This document shows positions 14,443-51,347 of a stretch of DNA of 64,000 nt, one piece after another (the first letter of the stretch is position 1; each line of letters starts with the position of its first letter). Source of the stretch: Hymenobacter aquaticus. GTDB taxonomy: Bacteria > Bacteroidota > Bacteroidia > Cytophagales > Hymenobacteraceae. The notes beneath the pieces were generated by a model. It saw nothing but the letters and a program-made list of their open reading frames with translations. It made no database searches and was not told where the DNA came from. The stretch covers positions 62,001 to 126,000 of the forward strand of contig NZ_SRLC01000002.1 in assembly GCF_004765605.1 (NCBI RefSeq). The letters are read 5' to 3'. The position numbers and the translations under genes were made by a program.

Positions 14443-16059
14443 ATGAACCTAAACCGCTTGCGGCCCCTGTGGCTGCTGGCCGGCGGCTTGCTGCTGCCCG
14501 CCTGTCACCAACAATACTCTACCGAAGTGCAGCAGGACGTGGCCAGCGCCTACGAAACGCCCGAAGCGGCCCCGCTGCCCGAAGCCGCGCCGCCCGCGGT
14601 AGGCAACACCGAATCGTACGCCCGGCTGCCGGAAAACCGGTTTGAGGACGTGCGCCGGGCCCCGCTCAGCACCTTCGCCATCGACGTGGACCCGGCCAGC
14701 TACGCCAACGTGCGCCGCTTCCTGACCCAGAACCGCCAGCTGCCGCCCCCCGAGGCCGTGCGCTTAGAAGAGCTGATTAACTACTTCCACTACGACTACC
14801 CCCAGCCCCGCCAAACCGATGCTCCGGCCACGCTGAACGCCGAAGTGGCCCGCTGCCCCTGGAACCCCGCGCACCAGCTGGTGCTGGTGGGCGTGCAGGG
14901 CCGGGAAGTAGCCACGTCCGCGCTGCCGCCCGCCAACCTGGTGTTCCTGCTCGACGTGTCGGGCTCGATGGAAGACGAAAACAAGCTGCCCTTGCTCAAA
15001 GCCAGCCTGCGCCAGCTGCTGCCCACGCTGCGCCCCCAGGATTATGTCTCGATTGTGGTGTATGCCGGGGCGGCGGGCCTGGTGCTGCCGCCCACGCCGG
15101 GCAGCCGGCCCCAGGAAATACTGGCGGCGCTGGATAACCTGGAAGCCGGGGGCTCGACGGCCGGGGGCGCCGGGCTGCGGCTGGCCTACCAGGTAGCGCG
15201 CGAGCAGGCCCGCCCCGGCACCAACAACCGCATTATCCTGGCCACCGACGGCGACTTCAACGTGGGTGAAAGCTCGGACGCGGCCCTGGAGCAGCTCGTG
15301 ACTCGGGAGCGGCAATCGGGCGTGTTTCTCACGGTGCTGGGCTTCGGGCAGGGCAATTTGCAGGACAGTAAGATGGAAGTGCTGGCCGACAAGGGCAACG
15401 GCAACTACGCCTACATTGACAACCTGAATGAGGCCCGGCGGGTGCTGGTGCAGCAGTTTGGCGGCACCCTGTTTACGCTGGCCAAGGATGTGAAAGTGCA
15501 GGTCGAGTTCAACCCGGCCCAGGTGCAGCAGTATCGCCTGCTGGGCTACGAAAACCGCCTGCTGGCCGCCGAGGACTTCAACGACGATACCAAGGATGCC
15601 GGCGAGCTGGGGGCGGGCCAGCAGGTGACGGCCCTCTACGAAATCGTGCCGACCGGCGCCCAGCCCGGCGCCGACGCGCTGAAGTACCAGGCCGGTCCTG
15701 CGGCGTCGGCCGCTGCCAGTACCGAGCTGCTCACGGTGAAGCTGCGCTACCAGGAGCCGCGGGGCAGCGCCAGCCGCCTGCTCACCCTGCCGGTGCCCGG
15801 CCGCCACGGCGGCCCCATCGAAGCAGCCTCCGACAACCTGCGCCAAGCGGCGGCCGTGGCCGAGTTCGGGCTGCTGCTGCGGCAGTCGGAGCACCGGGGC
15901 ACGGCCAGCTACGCGGCGGCCGGGCAGCTGGCCGAGTCGGTACAGGGGCCGGATGCGGACGGCGCGCGCCGGGAGTTTGCCGAGCTGGTGCGGCAGGCCG
16001 CCGAGCTCAGCGCCGAAGCCGCCCGGGTACCGGACGAAGAGGGGCGGCGCTACCGGTAA
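14443..16059 (+). CDS. von Willebrand factor A (YfbK-like) lipoprotein
   Basis: 538 aa. Signal segment LWLLAGGLLLPAC with lipidated Cys near residue 22, then a Glu/Ala/Pro-rich spacer. From residue 65 on it parallels the 666-aa protein upstream: LSTFAIDVDPASYANVRRFL, VWA domain with MIDAS DVSGSM at residue 171, GGSTAGG and ATDGDFNVGESSD, then the DUF3520-like C-terminus (EFNPAQVQQYRLLGYENRLL). It lacks the carboxypeptidase-regulatory and plug-like segments of its paralogue. Probably arose by duplication and is lipid-anchored. Confidence 0.88.
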   Translation: MNLNRLRPLWLLAGGLLLPACHQQYSTEVQQDVASAYETPEAAPLPEAAPPAVGNTESYARLPENRFEDVRRAPLSTFAIDVDPASYANVRRFLTQNRQLPPPEAVRLEELINYFHYDYPQPRQTDAPATLNAEVARCPWNPAHQLVLVGVQGREVATSALPPANLVFLLDVSGSMEDENKLPLLKASLRQLLPTLRPQDYVSIVVYAGAAGLVLPPTPGSRPQEILAALDNLEAGGSTAGGAGLRLAYQVAREQARPGTNNRIILATDGDFNVGESSDAALEQLVTRERQSGVFLTVLGFGQGNLQDSKMEVLADKGNGNYAYIDNLNEARRVLVQQFGGTLFTLAKDVKVQVEFNPAQVQQYRLLGYENRLLAAEDFNDDTKDAGELGAGQQVTALYEIVPTGAQPGADALKYQAGPAASAAASTELLTVKLRYQEPRGSASRLLTLPVPGRHGGPIEAASDNLRQAAAVAEFGLLLRQSEHRGTASYAAAGQLAESVQGPDADGARREFAELVRQAAELSAEAARVPDEEGRRYR

Positions 16060-16113: not shown

Positions 16114-16145
16114 TTTGTTCGTAGCAAGCGGCAAAATTTAATTTG
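16114..16145 (+). promoter_or_regulatory. Promoter of the Phe/Tyr operon leader
   Basis: A -33 TTTG (16114-16117) is separated by exactly 20 bp from TTAATTTG (16138-16145), one base from the Bacteroidota -7 consensus TAnnTTTG. Transcription should start near 16151, about 45 nt before the first leader peptide. Confidence 0.65.
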
Positions 16146-16195
16146 GAATTGCCAGAACTCGGCCCCACCTTGCCGCCGCAAAGCACCTGATTCTC

Positions 16196-16255
16196 ATGAC
16201 CCAGTACACCGGCCGCTTCTATTTTAGCTATTACTTCTACTACGCCCACGCGTAG
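16196..16255 (+). CDS. Aromatic leader peptide 1
   Basis: 19-residue peptide MTQYTGRFYFSYYFYYAHA with six Tyr and three Phe, eight of them packed between residues 8 and 16 (codons 16217-16243). It is followed by an antiterminator arm and a strong terminator upstream of pheA. In leader-peptide attenuation a ribosome starved of Phe- or Tyr-tRNA stalls at such codons and lets transcription continue. The stop codon TAG at 16253-16255 overlaps the first base of the antiterminator arm. The density of aromatic codons and the position make chance very unlikely. No strong Shine-Dalgarno is seen, as is usual in Bacteroidota. Confidence 0.88.
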   Translation: MTQYTGRFYFSYYFYYAHA

Positions 16256-16308
16256 TCGAGCGGTCCTCCTGTAGCTTTTCCCCACCGAAATTCTCAGCGC
16301 CTCTCGAC
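16255..16308 (+). promoter_or_regulatory. Predicted antiterminator pairing of attenuator 1
   Basis: GTCGAG (16255-16260) is complementary to CTCGAC (16303-16308) inside the 5' arm and loop of terminator 1. GGT (16262-16264) can extend the helix against GCC (16299-16301) around one mismatch. The two structures exclude each other. A ribosome resting on the leader stop codon would cover the first arm and allow termination; one stalled on the Phe/Tyr codons would leave it free. Confidence 0.7.
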
Positions 16309-16330
16309 CACCTCGGGAGGCGCTTTTTTT
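16296..16330 (+). terminator. Attenuator terminator 1
   Basis: 12-bp stem: arm AGCGCCTCTCGA (16296-16307), loop CCACC, arm TCGGGAGGCGCT (16313-16324), with a single G-T wobble, followed by seven T (16324-16330). It is a textbook Rho-independent terminator 41 nt after leader peptide 1 and before leader peptide 2. Confidence 0.9.
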
Positions 16331-16350
16331 ACGCTCATTTTCTGCCTCAC

Positions 16351-16431
16351 ATGCCTGCTTCAGTGTTCTTCTATTACGGCTACTACTACTTCTTCTTTAC
16401 GAAGAAGCGGGGCCCCGTTTGCCAAAGCTGA
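16351..16431 (+). CDS. Aromatic leader peptide 2
   Basis: 26-residue peptide starting MPASVFFYYGYYYFFF, with five Phe and five Tyr between residues 6 and 16 (codons 16366-16398). Its last ten residues contain no aromatic residue and are encoded across the GC-rich palindrome CGGGGCCCCG. It begins 20 nt after terminator 1 and is followed by its own terminator. It should act as a second, independent sensor of Phe and Tyr charging. It ends at TGA 16429-16431. A frame opening at TTG 16419 into pheA overlaps it and is not the pheA start. Confidence 0.87.
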   Translation: MPASVFFYYGYYYFFFTKKRGPVCQS

Positions 16432-16467
16432 CCACCAGTACAGCACCAGAAGCAAAACAGGCCCCGC
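16407..16467 (+). promoter_or_regulatory. Predicted antiterminator pairing of attenuator 2
   Basis: GCGGGGCC (16407-16414), inside codons 19-22 of leader peptide 2, is perfectly complementary to GGCCCCGC (16460-16467), which includes the 5' arm of terminator 2. The first arm starts 8 nt after the last Phe codon. It is therefore free when a ribosome stalls in the aromatic run and covered when translation proceeds. Confidence 0.68.
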
Positions 16468-16486
16468 ACTCCGGAGGCCTTTTTTT
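16459..16486 (+). terminator. Attenuator terminator 2
   Basis: Arms AGGCCCC (16459-16465) and GGAGGCCT (16473-16480), 7 bp with one bulged A, loop GCACTCC, then seven T (16480-16486). It is weaker than terminator 1. The upstream AAAA can extend pairing with the T tract. It ends 25 nt before the pheA start codon. Confidence 0.78.
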
Positions 16487-16511
16487 ATGTCCATTTCCAA
16501 TACCCCGCAGT

Positions 16512-17345
16512 ATGCTTTCCACCGTCGCCATCCAGGGCTTTGAAGGTAGTTTTCACCAGATAGCCGCCCGCCACTACTTCGGCCCCGCGGCCCTGACGGC
16601 GCCCTGCGCCACGTTTGGGGAAGTGGTGCGCCAGGTGAGCAGCGGCACGGCCGGGCACGGGCTGATGGCCATTGAAAACTCCATTGCCGGCAGCATCTTG
16701 CCCAACTACAACCTGCTGCGCCAGGCCGGCCTGCGCGTGACCGGGGAAGTGTACCTGCAAATCCGCCAGCACCTGATGGCGTTGCCCGGCCAGCCGCTCG
16801 ACGACATCAGGGAAGTGCACTCCCACCCCATGGCCCTGCTGCAGTGCGCCGACTTCCTGAGCCAGCACGGCCCCTGGCGCCTGGTCGAGACGGAGGACAC
16901 GGCCCTGAGCGCCCAGCGCATCCGGGAGGGGCTGCGCACCGGCACCGCCGCCGTGGCCGGCAAGCTGGCCGCCGAGCTGTTCGATCTGGAAATCCTGGCC
17001 AAGGACATTCACTCCGAAAAGAAGAACTACACCCGCTTTCTAGTGGTCGACCGGCCCGAAAATGCGGCGGCGGTGGTGGCGCCCAACAAGGCCTCGCTCT
17101 ACTTCCACACCACCCACGCCCAGGGCAGCCTGGCCCAGGTGCTCATCCGCATTGCCGACCAAGGCATCAACCTCTCCAAGCTGCAGTCCTTCCCGATTCC
17201 GGCCAAAACCTGGCACTACTACTTCCACGCCGACCTCGAATTCGACGACCCGGCCCAGCTCGAAGCGGCGTTGCAAGCCATGAAGCCGGTGACCGAGGGC
17301 CTGGAAGTGCTGGGCATCTACCACAAAGGCACCACGCATAAGTGA
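16512..17345 (+). CDS. pheA: Prephenate dehydratase
   Basis: Converts prephenate to phenylpyruvate, the committed step to phenylalanine. 277 aa. Catalytic domain: VAIQGFEGSFHQIAARHYFG at the start, VMAIENS-type segment GLMAIENSIAGSI, and the catalytic TRF motif at residues 174-176 (KKNYTRFLVV). C-terminal ACT domain (about 195-270): GINLSKLQSFPIPAKTWHYY, the usual Phe-binding regulatory site. No fused chorismate mutase; that domain is on the DAHP synthase downstream. The ATG at 16512 is chosen because it directly precedes the conserved domain and follows attenuator 2. Confidence 0.95.
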   Translation: MLSTVAIQGFEGSFHQIAARHYFGPAALTAPCATFGEVVRQVSSGTAGHGLMAIENSIAGSILPNYNLLRQAGLRVTGEVYLQIRQHLMALPGQPLDDIREVHSHPMALLQCADFLSQHGPWRLVETEDTALSAQRIREGLRTGTAAVAGKLAAELFDLEILAKDIHSEKKNYTRFLVVDRPENAAAVVAPNKASLYFHTTHAQGSLAQVLIRIADQGINLSKLQSFPIPAKTWHYYFHADLEFDDPAQLEAALQAMKPVTEGLEVLGIYHKGTTHK

Positions 17346-17487: not shown

Positions 17488-18654
17488 ATGCAAGTCTCCG
17501 TCGCCAGCCGTTTGCAGCACACCCAGGAATACTACTTCTCCCGTAAGCTGCGCGAAATTGACGCTATGAATAAAGCCGGGGCCCAGGTTATCAACCTCGG
17601 CATCGGCAGCCCCGACCTGCCGCCCCACCCGCGCGTGGTTGCCGCCCTTACCTCGGCCGCCGAGCAGCCCAATACCCACGCCTACCAGAACTACAAGGGC
17701 GTGCCGGCCCTGCGCCAGGCCATGACCAGCTGGTATGAGCGCAGCTACGGCGTGACGCTGGACCCCGAAACCGAGGTGCTGCCCCTGCTGGGCTCCAAGG
17801 AAGGCATTATCCATGTGAGCATGACCTTCCTGGAAGCCGGCGACGAAGTGCTGATTCCGAACCCCGGCTACCCGGCCTACCGCGCCGCCGCCCACCTGGC
17901 CGGCGCCACGCCCCTGGACTACGACCTGACCGCCGAAAACCACTGGCTGCCCGACCTGGAAGCCCTGGCCCGGCGCGACCTGAGCCGGGTGAAGCTGATG
18001 TGGGTCAACTACCCCCACATGCCCACCGGCACTCCGCCCGACGCGGCTTTCTTCGCCCGGCTGGTGGCCTTTGCCACCGCGCACGACATCCTGCTGGTCC
18101 ACGACAACCCCTACAGCTTCATCCTGAACCAGGAGCCGGCTCAGAGCCTGCTGGCCGTGCCCGGGGCCCGGGAAGTGGTGCTGGAGCTCAACTCGCTGAG
18201 CAAGTCGCACAACATGGCGGGCTGGCGCGTGGGCATGCTCGTGGGCCGCGCCGACCTCTTGCAGGAAGTGCTGCGCTTTAAGAGCAACCTCGACTCGGGT
18301 ATGTTCTTGCCGGTGCAGCTGGCCGCCGTCGAAGCCCTGAGCCTGGATGAAAGCTGGTACCAGGAGCTCAACGCCCACTACGCCGCCCGCCGGGAGCTGG
18401 TCTTCGCGCTGCTCGACACCATCGGCTGCCGCTACGAGCGAAACCAGGTGGGCCTGTTCGTGTGGGCCGCCATTCCGGCCGGGTACGCCGACGGCTACGC
18501 CCTGAGCGACGAGCTACTGCACGCGGCCAAGGTATTTATTACCCCCGGCGGCATCTTCGGCTCCAACGGCAACGGTTTCATCCGCGTCAGCCTCTGCCAA
18601 ACCACCCAGGTGCTGGAACAAGCATTAACCCGAATCAAAGCCAGCAGAAGCTAA
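17488..18654 (+). CDS. PLP-dependent class I/II aminotransferase (aromatic amino acid)
   Basis: 388 aa, fold-type I aminotransferase. Visible: NLGIGSPDLPPHP, HAYQNYKGVPALRQAMTSWY, PNPGYPAYRAAA, a variant WVNYPHMPTG in place of the usual NYPNNPTG, and the PLP lysine in SLSKSHNMAGWRVG at Lys239. Lying between pheA and tyrA, it most likely transaminates phenylpyruvate and 4-hydroxyphenylpyruvate, or prephenate. By sequence alone it resembles LL-diaminopimelate or aspartate aminotransferases; the aromatic assignment is from context. Cytoplasmic. Confidence 0.88.
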   Translation: MQVSVASRLQHTQEYYFSRKLREIDAMNKAGAQVINLGIGSPDLPPHPRVVAALTSAAEQPNTHAYQNYKGVPALRQAMTSWYERSYGVTLDPETEVLPLLGSKEGIIHVSMTFLEAGDEVLIPNPGYPAYRAAAHLAGATPLDYDLTAENHWLPDLEALARRDLSRVKLMWVNYPHMPTGTPPDAAFFARLVAFATAHDILLVHDNPYSFILNQEPAQSLLAVPGAREVVLELNSLSKSHNMAGWRVGMLVGRADLLQEVLRFKSNLDSGMFLPVQLAAVEALSLDESWYQELNAHYAARRELVFALLDTIGCRYERNQVGLFVWAAIPAGYADGYALSDELLHAAKVFITPGGIFGSNGNGFIRVSLCQTTQVLEQALTRIKASRS

Positions 18655-18718: not shown

Positions 18719-19561
18719 ATGATTACGACAATAATCGGCTTAGGACTTATCGGCGGCTCCCTGGCCATCAGCCTGAAAGAACAAGGCCTGACCCAGCACG
18801 TCATCGGCGTAGACCACAGCCCCGCAAACCTGCGAAAGGCCCAGGACCTGCGCCTCATCGACGAAGGCACCGCCGACCTAGCCGCCGCCGTGCGCCGCGC
18901 CAACCTGGTGGTGGTGGCCGTGCCGATGGACGCCATGCTGACCGTGCTGCCCCAGGTGCTGGACGACGTGGATCAGCAGGTGGTTATCGACGTGGGCTCT
19001 ACCAAGTCGATGCTGCTGGCGGCCGTGGCCGGGCACCCGCGCCGGGGCCGCTTCGTGGCGGTACACCCCATGGCCGGCACCGAGTACTCCGGCCCCGAAG
19101 CCGCCGTGCCCGGGCTGTTTACCGACAAAACCCTGGTTATCTGCGACGCCGAGCAGAGCGACGCCGACGCCGTGAACCAGGTGCAGCGCCTGTTCGAGCA
19201 GCTCCGGATGCGCATCGAATACCTCGACGCCGCCGCCCACGACTTGCACACGGCTTACGTCTCGCACATTTCCCACATTACCTCTTTTGCCCTGGCCCTC
19301 ACGGTATTAGAGAAAGAAAAAGAGGAGCAACAGATTTTTGCCCTGGCCAGCGGCGGCTTCGCCTCCACGGTGCGCCTGGCCAAAAGCTCGCCCGATATGT
19401 GGGTGCCCATCTTCCGCCAAAACCGCGTCAACGTCCTCGACGTGCTCGACGAGCACATCCACCAGCTTCAGCACCTGCGCCACCTCATTGCCCAGGAAGA
19501 CTACCCCGCCGTCTACCAGCAAATCGAGCAAGCCAACCTGATTAAGAAGATTTTGAAGTAA
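18719..19561 (+). CDS. tyrA: Prephenate dehydrogenase
   Basis: Oxidises prephenate to 4-hydroxyphenylpyruvate using NAD(P)+, the tyrosine branch. 280 aa. Rossmann motif IIGLGLIGGSLA at residues 4-15, followed by VIGVDHSPANLRKAQ, then DVGSTKSMLL and the substrate-site HPMAGTEYSGPEAA. The C-terminal helical domain contains HTAYVSHISHITSFALAL. There is no ACT domain, so feedback control may rest on transcription attenuation and the ACT domain of PheA (inference). It is third gene of the operon. Confidence 0.94.
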   Translation: MITTIIGLGLIGGSLAISLKEQGLTQHVIGVDHSPANLRKAQDLRLIDEGTADLAAAVRRANLVVVAVPMDAMLTVLPQVLDDVDQQVVIDVGSTKSMLLAAVAGHPRRGRFVAVHPMAGTEYSGPEAAVPGLFTDKTLVICDAEQSDADAVNQVQRLFEQLRMRIEYLDAAAHDLHTAYVSHISHITSFALALTVLEKEKEEQQIFALASGGFASTVRLAKSSPDMWVPIFRQNRVNVLDVLDEHIHQLQHLRHLIAQEDYPAVYQQIEQANLIKKILK

Positions 19562-19778: not shown

Positions 19779-20849
19779 ATGCAATCCGCACTTTTCAACC
19801 GCCAGCCCGACGACAAACCCTTCCTGATTTCGGGCCCCTGCTCGGCTGAAACCGAGGAGCAAGTCCTCGAAACCTGCCAGCGCCTGGCCGCCACTGGCAA
19901 GGTGCAGGCCCTGCGCGCCGGCATCTGGAAGCCCCGCACCAAGCCCGGCGGCTTCGAGGGCATCGGCACCAAGGGCCTGCCCTGGCTTAAGAAAGCCGGC
20001 GAGCTGACCGGCCTGCCCATTGCCGTGGAAGTAGCCACCGCCAAGCACGTGGAAGACTGCCTGGCCTTCGGCGTGGATATTCTCTGGGTGGGCGCCCGCA
20101 CCACTGGTAACCCGTTCTCGGTGCAGGAAATTGCCAACGTGCTGCGCGGCGTGCAGGTGCCGGTGCTGGTCAAGAACCCGATTCACCCCGAGCTGGAGCT
20201 GTGGGTGGGCGCCGTGGAGCGCCTCAAAAAGGCCGGTCTGGAGAAAGTCGGCCTCATTCACCGGGGCTTCAGCTCCTACGGCAACACCGACTTCCGCAAC
20301 GCCCCGATGTGGCACCTACCCATCGAAATGAAGCGCCGCCACCCCGACATGCCCCTGCTCTGCGACCCCAGCCACATCTGCGGCCGCCGCGACACGCTCT
20401 TCGCCGTGGCCCAGCAGGCCCTCAACCTGGGCTTCGACGGCAACATGATTGAAAGCCACATCGACCCCGATAACGCCTGGAGCGACGCCAAGCAGCAGAT
20501 TACCCCCGAAGTGCTCCGCGACCTGATCCAGGACCTGGTGTGGCGCCACGAAACCACCGACCAGCGCGAGTTTCTGACCGCCCTGTCCAGCCTGCGTGAG
20601 CAAATCAACCAGCTCGACGCCGAAATCATCCAGCTGTTGGGCCGCCGCATGGCCGTGGCCGAGAAAATTGGGGTCTACAAGAAGGAAAACGACATCACCA
20701 TTCTCCAGACCGGCCGTTGGAACGAGGTGCTGGAGCGGGCCCAGCGTCAGGGCAGCTCCGTGGGCCTCACCCCGGAGTTTATCGAGCAGTACTTCGCCGC
20801 CGTGCATTTGGAGTCCATCAACCACCAAAACAAGGTGATGGAAGGCTAA
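19779..20849 (+). CDS. aroF: Bifunctional DAHP synthase / chorismate mutase
   Basis: 356 aa. Residues 1-255 form a KDPG-aldolase-type 3-deoxy-7-phosphoheptulonate synthase: FLISGPCSAETEEQV, RAGIWKPRTKPGGFEGIG, then CDPSHICGRRD and GNMIESHIDPDNAWSDAKQQ. This enzyme starts the shikimate pathway from PEP and erythrose-4-phosphate. Residues about 264-350 form an AroQ chorismate mutase (LREQINQLDAEIIQLLGRRM, then AEKIGVYKKENDI). The order synthase-mutase is the usual Bacteroidota fusion. Last gene of the attenuated operon, followed by a strong terminator. Confidence 0.95.
   Translation: MQSALFNRQPDDKPFLISGPCSAETEEQVLETCQRLAATGKVQALRAGIWKPRTKPGGFEGIGTKGLPWLKKAGELTGLPIAVEVATAKHVEDCLAFGVDILWVGARTTGNPFSVQEIANVLRGVQVPVLVKNPIHPELELWVGAVERLKKAGLEKVGLIHRGFSSYGNTDFRNAPMWHLPIEMKRRHPDMPLLCDPSHICGRRDTLFAVAQQALNLGFDGNMIESHIDPDNAWSDAKQQITPEVLRDLIQDLVWRHETTDQREFLTALSSLREQINQLDAEIIQLLGRRMAVAEKIGVYKKENDITILQTGRWNEVLERAQRQGSSVGLTPEFIEQYFAAVHLESINHQNKVMEG

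Positions 20850-51274: not shown

Positions 51275-51347
<73 letters not shown>

Follow-up and report, generated by a model that had tools for sequence, protein, structure and literature searches.

The region upstream of pheA in the analysed window (the whole 64-kb stretch of DNA, from a Hymenobacter genome) is most probably a double ribosome-mediated transcription attenuator, a reading to which the comparison of genomes and RNA folding give a probability of about 90%. A preliminary description of this DNA had proposed that two attenuators act one after the other on the Phe/Tyr operon, and the proposal is backed by the conservation of both leaders in 82 of 105 same-genus loci and by the folding results. 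The features are listed in Table 1.

Table 1. Features of the pheA upstream region and of the genes that follow it, in positions of the window.
Feature	Position	Strand	Basis or content
Promoter-like element TTTG-N-TA-TTTG	16114..16145	+	pattern match
Leader ORF 1, MTQYTGRFYFSYYFYYAHA	16196..16255	+	19 codons, 6 Tyr, 3 Phe
Attenuator 1, possible 1:2 hairpin (16236-16245 x 16250-16259)	16236..16259	+	inverted repeat I8, 9/10 pairs
Attenuator 1, antiterminator (16255-16263 x 16300-16308)	16255..16308	+	pairing tests and folding
Terminator 1	hairpin 16296-16324, T-run to 16330	+	consensus scan and folding
Leader ORF 2, MPASVFFYYGYYYFFFTKKRGPVCQS	16351..16431	+	26 codons, 5 Tyr, 5 Phe
Attenuator 2, 1:2 hairpin (16389-16395 x 16401-16407)	16389..16407	+	92.8% of cells paired (shuffles 89.3%)
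Attenuator 2, antiterminator (16407-16422 x 16452-16467)	16407..16467	+	pairing tests and folding
Terminator 2	hairpin 16459-16480, T-run to 16486	+	folding
pheA, prephenate dehydratase	16512..17345	+	PF00800
Class I/II aminotransferase	17488..18654	+	PF00155
tyrA, prephenate dehydrogenase	18719..19561	+	PF02153 and PF20463
DAHP synthase/chorismate mutase (aroG/CM)	19779..20849	+	PF00793 and PF01817

Organization of the pheA upstream region

The interval upstream of pheA extends from the end of a vWA-domain gene at 16059 to the pheA start at 16512 and contains two short ORFs. Concerning the genes downstream, strand and spacing suggest that pheA, the aminotransferase gene, tyrA and the DAHP synthase/chorismate mutase gene constitute a single operon, and from the functions that this gene set combines, the presumed operon would make both Phe and Tyr.

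Leaders 1 and 2 are the only ORFs of their kind on both strands of the window, under a criterion of 12-40 codons, an ATG start and at least eight Phe/Tyr within 11 residues. The two aromatic leader ORFs of the preliminary description (19 and 26 codons, with 9 and 10 Phe/Tyr codons) were recovered with the same coordinates and composition, and both are short and rich in codons for the products of the operon, as in known attenuators. A promoter had also been placed before them. The pattern TTTG-N-TA-TTTG, which we take to be the Bacteroidota promoter consensus, is indeed present, but a sigma-70 promoter scan of the region found none. Of the 105 same-genus loci, 17 have the pattern before leader 1, against a mean of 0.25 in letter shuffles, and its strict form is missing from the other 88.

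The Rfam scan of the 64-kb window gave a tRNA gene (51275-51347) as its only match, and neither a T-box nor any other Rfam leader family was found at the gathering score (0 matches in 8 sources). A known Rfam element was therefore ruled out as the identity of the leader region, where the covariance models gave no match.

About 90 bases separate the end of leader 1 from leader 2, and 80 bases separate the end of leader 2 from pheA. These distances bear on the idea that the leaders act by translation, through reinitiation or exposure of the pheA start, and not by transcription termination. Reinitiation at leader genes has been proposed for bacteria, with a distance peak reported also in Bacteroidetes (PMC4833913). 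However, this peak lies at 11-14 bp in the same study, far from both gaps (PMC4833913), and the 80-base gap between leader 2 and pheA is occupied by a hairpin with a T-run. Hence, a translational mechanism is considered very improbable, and transcription attenuation is the reading followed below.

In the same genome, trpE is preceded by one leader with three Trp codons and then a terminator-like hairpin (L267, 1237-1323). Upstream of hisG, ilvD and two homoserine dehydrogenase matches, 1.5 kb of DNA showed no pair of leaders rich in product codons; for all these genes, one stretch per gene was inspected.

Terminators and alternative pairings

The consensus terminator scan of the + strand listed terminator 1 only, and terminator 2 came from folding. 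In both units an intrinsic terminator is located between the leader ORF and the next unit or gene. The hairpin and T-run described earlier after each leader, with a competing alternative pairing, were recovered by the scan, by folding and by the search for inverted repeats. Terminators were detected in 102 of 105 first units and in 82 of 82 second units of the same-genus loci, with medians of -18.9 kcal/mol (unit 1) and -15.1 kcal/mol (unit 2). In the three first units that were missed (L056, L057 and L063), the T-run after terminator 1 is interrupted by C; these loci were excluded from the unit 1 counts, which leaves 79 of 82. The possibility that terminator 1 is the end of the upstream vWA gene was ruled out, since this gene adjoins in only 7 of the 105 loci.

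The alternative pairing of each unit makes use of the 5' arm of the terminator. When compared with the median of 10 shuffles, the cognate antiterminator duplex was the stronger one in 78 of 79 loci (unit 1) and 75 of 79 (unit 2). Pairing across units was weaker than cognate pairing in 74 of 79 loci for the arm of unit 1 and in 73 of 79 for that of unit 2, and therefore the two units seem to be largely insulated from each other. In unit 2, the antiterminator gained little with its own arm (-16.3) relative to the arms of other loci (-14.7).

Covariation was evaluated in alignments where identical sequences had been collapsed (97 and 79 rows). At least one double change was present in 6 of 12 (unit 1) and 4 of 8 (unit 2) terminator stem pairs, and in 4 of 8 outer antiterminator pairs of each unit. 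Paired cells were slightly above shuffles (71.8% vs 63.3% and 75.5% vs 72.2%), double changes also appeared in slid control versions of the stems (as many as 4 of 8), and the antiterminator is almost invariant in the largest unit 1 subgroup. Because of these small margins, the changes in slid versions and the invariant subgroup, the pairing evidence is supportive and not decisive, and the stems appear to covary modestly.

Folding with the ribosome in place

The RNA was folded with the ribosome stepped codon by codon along each leader, at the stage where the 3' arm of the terminator is still unmade. In unit 1, the predicted capture of the terminator 5' arm fell from 0.78 to 0.21 over A-site codons -4 to -1 (79 loci), the last aromatic codon of leader 1 being usually at -5. 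In unit 2, it fell from 0.67 to 0.28 over A-site codons -12 to -10 (82 loci), and the last aromatic codon of leader 2 is usually at -12. In both units, the antiterminator holds the 5' arm with the ribosome at or before the aromatic run and releases it just past the run. It is likewise held with the ribosome on early, non-aromatic codons, so this folding locates the switch and does not indicate that the aromatic codons cause stalling.

The same switch was obtained for both units of Chitinophaga. In the sister genus g3 and the family f27, it was weaker in unit 1, and in unit 2 it preceded the last aromatic residue, because leader 2 ends there in an isolated Tyr.

Equilibrium folding of the window gave a different picture for each unit. 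Terminator 1 prevails wherever the ribosome is placed (P at least 0.93), which means that unit 1 would have to act kinetically. Unit 2 shows a sharp switch from 0.01 to 0.92, and terminator 2 does not form when the ribosome is omitted (P 0.00), unlike in classical attenuators.

Conservation in Hymenobacter and other Bacteroidota

Of 120 same-genus genomes, 107 gave a PheA match, and the upstream DNA was read for 105 of these 107 (G107 and G114 offered fragments only). Leaders were called with at least five aromatic residues in 10 (4 or 6 in single counts), a rule that also catches chance ORFs, which were set aside by eye. All 105 pheA loci carry at least one aromatic leader; two are present in 82 and one in 23. 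Conservation in other Hymenobacter genomes was the check that the preliminary description had called for, and both leaders are kept in the 82 loci; the lack of conservation that was to speak against the proposal did not appear.

The single leaders resemble leader 1 and belong to two groups, ending in TPPA and RAAVL, which are placed in separate parts of the PheA tree. These 23 single-leader loci, which occupy at least two distinct positions in the tree, are what one would expect if only one attenuator mattered and the other were a relic, redundant or decaying, that hardly affected expression. Nevertheless, both leaders are present in 82 of the 105 loci, where the terminators and antiterminators of both units are maintained, and such a relic is considered unlikely next to a functional double attenuator. 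Regarding the sequence between the units, a [TC]GTAG motif (16270-16274 in the window) starts 12-17 bases past the leader 1 stop in 98 of 105 loci, its position in the RAAVL group being measured from the usual stop site; it follows leader 2 in 0 of 82.

Beyond the genus, tandem leaders were read in 4 of 4 loci of the nearest genus g5 and in 9 of 27 of g3, and single leaders in 8 of 8 loci of g4 and 4 of 4 of g6. About 17 of 40 loci chosen from the wider order, class and phylum present an aromatic leader with a terminator, as judged by eye, and one of these 40 is tandem (L170, family f27). Moreover, 23 of the 80 best named loci are labelled Chitinophaga. Twenty-two of these were readable, the other (L217) having only 117 bases upstream, and all 22 are tandem. 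They have two terminators each under a looser T-run rule, applied after the strict one had missed terminators in several Chitinophaga units.

Phe and Tyr codons of the two leaders

Over the 82 tandem loci, Phe makes up 34% of the last five aromatic codons of leader 1 and 53% of those of leader 2. The Chitinophaga leaders go in the same direction (leader 1, 54 Tyr, 34 Phe and 22 Trp; leader 2, 68 Phe and 42 Tyr). This could indicate a division of labour in which leader 1 mainly reads Tyr charging and leader 2 mainly reads Phe charging, giving a joint signal. However, each leader carries both codons, the Tyr share is higher in leader 1 than in leader 2 of the same locus in only 52 of 82 cases, and g3 is free of this bias (leader 1, 36 Phe and 9 Tyr; leader 2, 27 Phe and 18 Tyr). 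Such a division is therefore doubtful, and the Tyr bias of leader 1 across Hymenobacter appears only as a trend. The case for the two differently biased sensors proposed at first is thus weak.

A Trp codon is found among the last five aromatic codons of leader 1 in 22 of 22 Chitinophaga loci (L200-L259), and therefore the operon may also read Trp charging there. In a reading-frame test of synonymous changes in the leaders, frame 0 did not stand out, since frame +2 reached the same score, and the test was uninformative.

Genomes without pheA

Thirteen same-genus genomes gave no PheA match. Two of them (G096 and G097, 81% complete) were left out, and in the eleven examined, which are 99-100% complete (G001, G003, G005, G020, G021, G042, G056, G059, G066, G087 and G117), the PF00800 domain was found in none. 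These eleven organisms may be auxotrophic for Phe, or they may make it by a different route. In three genomes lacking PF00800 and PF02153, no aromatic leader was found in about 4 kb before the operon-type aroG. In four of the eleven, two leaders and two terminators still precede the aminotransferase gene, tyrA and aroG; when these four loci were refolded, all eight units kept leader and terminator and gave the same switch.

The four pheA-less leader pairs total 13 Phe and 35 Tyr codons, against 707 Phe and 660 Tyr in the 82 tandem loci with pheA, that is, 3.25 vs 8.62 Phe and 8.75 vs 8.05 Tyr per pair. Omission of the first four residues gives totals of 10 Phe and 35 Tyr against 684 and 659 (2.50 vs 8.34 Phe and 8.75 vs 8.04 Tyr per pair). 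Trimmed or untrimmed, the combined Phe share of each pheA-less locus is below that of all 82 loci with pheA. A Fisher test gave p = 0.001 (0.0002 trimmed), a value which assumes that codons are independent and rests on two lineages; the aminotransferase tree, from which the short L123 was omitted, requires two separate losses of pheA.

The reduction is distributed differently among the loci. Leader 1 of L334 and L335 has zero Phe, as has leader 2 of L333 past residue 2; Phe is within the spread of the pheA-containing loci in leader 1 of L333 and L336 and, if no residue is omitted, in leader 2 of L334 and L335. After the loss of pheA, Phe codons thus fell in leader 1 in some genomes and in leader 2 in others, which argues against one unit being a relic. 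The division of labour does not fit well either, as all core Phe was lost from leader 1 in two genomes and from leader 2 in one. Since Phe codons drop with the loss of pheA and Tyr codons do not change, it seems that the codons follow the products of the operon, with effects in both leaders. In these two lineages, the product codons agree with the enzymes present, and the pheA-less genomes amount to a natural experiment that links leader codons to the end product.

History of the operon and of the tandem leaders

In the PheA tree, the proteins of Hymenobacter and g5 group with those of Chitinophagaceae, apart from other genera of their own family. This closeness (16512-17345; L200-L266) suggests that the operon moved laterally between lineages. 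The tandem members of g3 are also apart from its single-leader members, on a long branch. On well supported branches, the tandem label must have changed four times or more, so the tandem state would have been gained or lost repeatedly. This is a quick tree of 140 chosen rows, to which a long-branch warning applies, and it excludes L259 (with a stop) and those Chitinophagaceae loci whose leaders were unclear.

With 46 chosen rows, the best tree joins Hymenobacter to the single-leader Chitinophagaceae. Holding Chitinophaga and Hymenobacter tandem loci together gave a p-AU of 0.32, and holding Chitinophaga with the single-leader Chitinophagaceae gave 0.29.

Comparison with known attenuators

Some attenuators were reportedly predicted in Bacteroidetes/Chlorobi by Vitreschak et al. 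in 2004. Signs that leader peptides attenuate amino acid operons are mentioned for Flavobacterium psychrophilum (PMC9723704), and short ORFs reminiscent of leader peptides for Bacteroides thetaiotaomicron (PMC7366714).

The Hymenobacter region resembles attenuators of the E. coli trp, his and pheA type in its short ORFs with product codons, alternative pairings and intrinsic terminators, and in preceding an operon for the same amino acids. It differs from them in having two full units in series, each with Phe and Tyr codons. The preliminary description took a single leader as the known arrangement. The proposed mechanism itself is indeed classical, but tandem attenuators exist in Salmonella mgtCBR (PMC3641672), with two leader ORFs in one leader RNA of one operon. 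Their signals differ (ATP and proline), their stem-loops are described there as unlike intrinsic terminators, and their effects are reported as additive (PMC3641672). Both Hymenobacter units, in contrast, carry Phe and Tyr codons and have a hairpin with a T-run, and this tandem does not fit a class with different signals and no intrinsic terminators.

Other systems share part of the architecture. The mefA/msrD operon has a second ribosome-mediated attenuator and an intrinsic terminator, but it senses drugs and its second unit controls the downstream gene only (PMC10314930). In ermB, two leader peptides precede one gene, but the attenuation is translational and drug-induced (PMC8274638). The tandem riboswitches of B. 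clausii metE place two independent sensors and two predicted intrinsic terminators in series; there, however, the RNA binds its signals directly and the ligands are two different ones (PMC3641672).

The open-access literature searched, in which subscription papers are sparsely covered, gave no description of a biosynthetic operon preceded by stacked units that read the same signal and have intrinsic terminators. Ribosome-mediated attenuation in series is well backed by the comparison of genomes; its mechanism would be classical, and the novelty would lie in stacking two such units on a biosynthetic operon.

Proposed mechanism and biological meaning

Once past the promoter, the RNA polymerase would make leader 1 first. 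With ample charged tRNA-Tyr and tRNA-Phe, the ribosome would reach the stop codon and cover the antiterminator arm, and terminator 1 would form. A ribosome stalled on an aromatic codon would let the antiterminator form and the polymerase continue. About 90 bases further on, leader 2 would repeat the same decision independently, and only the transcripts that pass both units would reach pheA, the aminotransferase gene, tyrA and aroG. Since passage through both units would be required, basal leak and fractional responses would multiply. In this way, termination, the response to starvation and multiplied read-through would be expected at both units.

It is tentatively proposed, at somewhat less than even odds, that serial same-signal attenuators are a recurrent Bacteroidota way to raise the steepness and range of Phe/Tyr operon control, in which the log sensitivities of two races would add and the leaks multiply. 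According to this proposal, leader 1 would be tuned to Tyr and leader 2 to Phe in the Hymenobacter and Chitinophaga lineages, and the gain, loss and retuning of leaders would track the enzymes of the operon. Both the codons and the number of attenuators (none, one or two) change from genome to genome along with the enzymes, so that attenuation sensitivity theory (PMC1183508) could be tested on real leaders, and the Phe/Tyr operon of Hymenobacter would offer a testable case of stacked sensors for the same nutrients.
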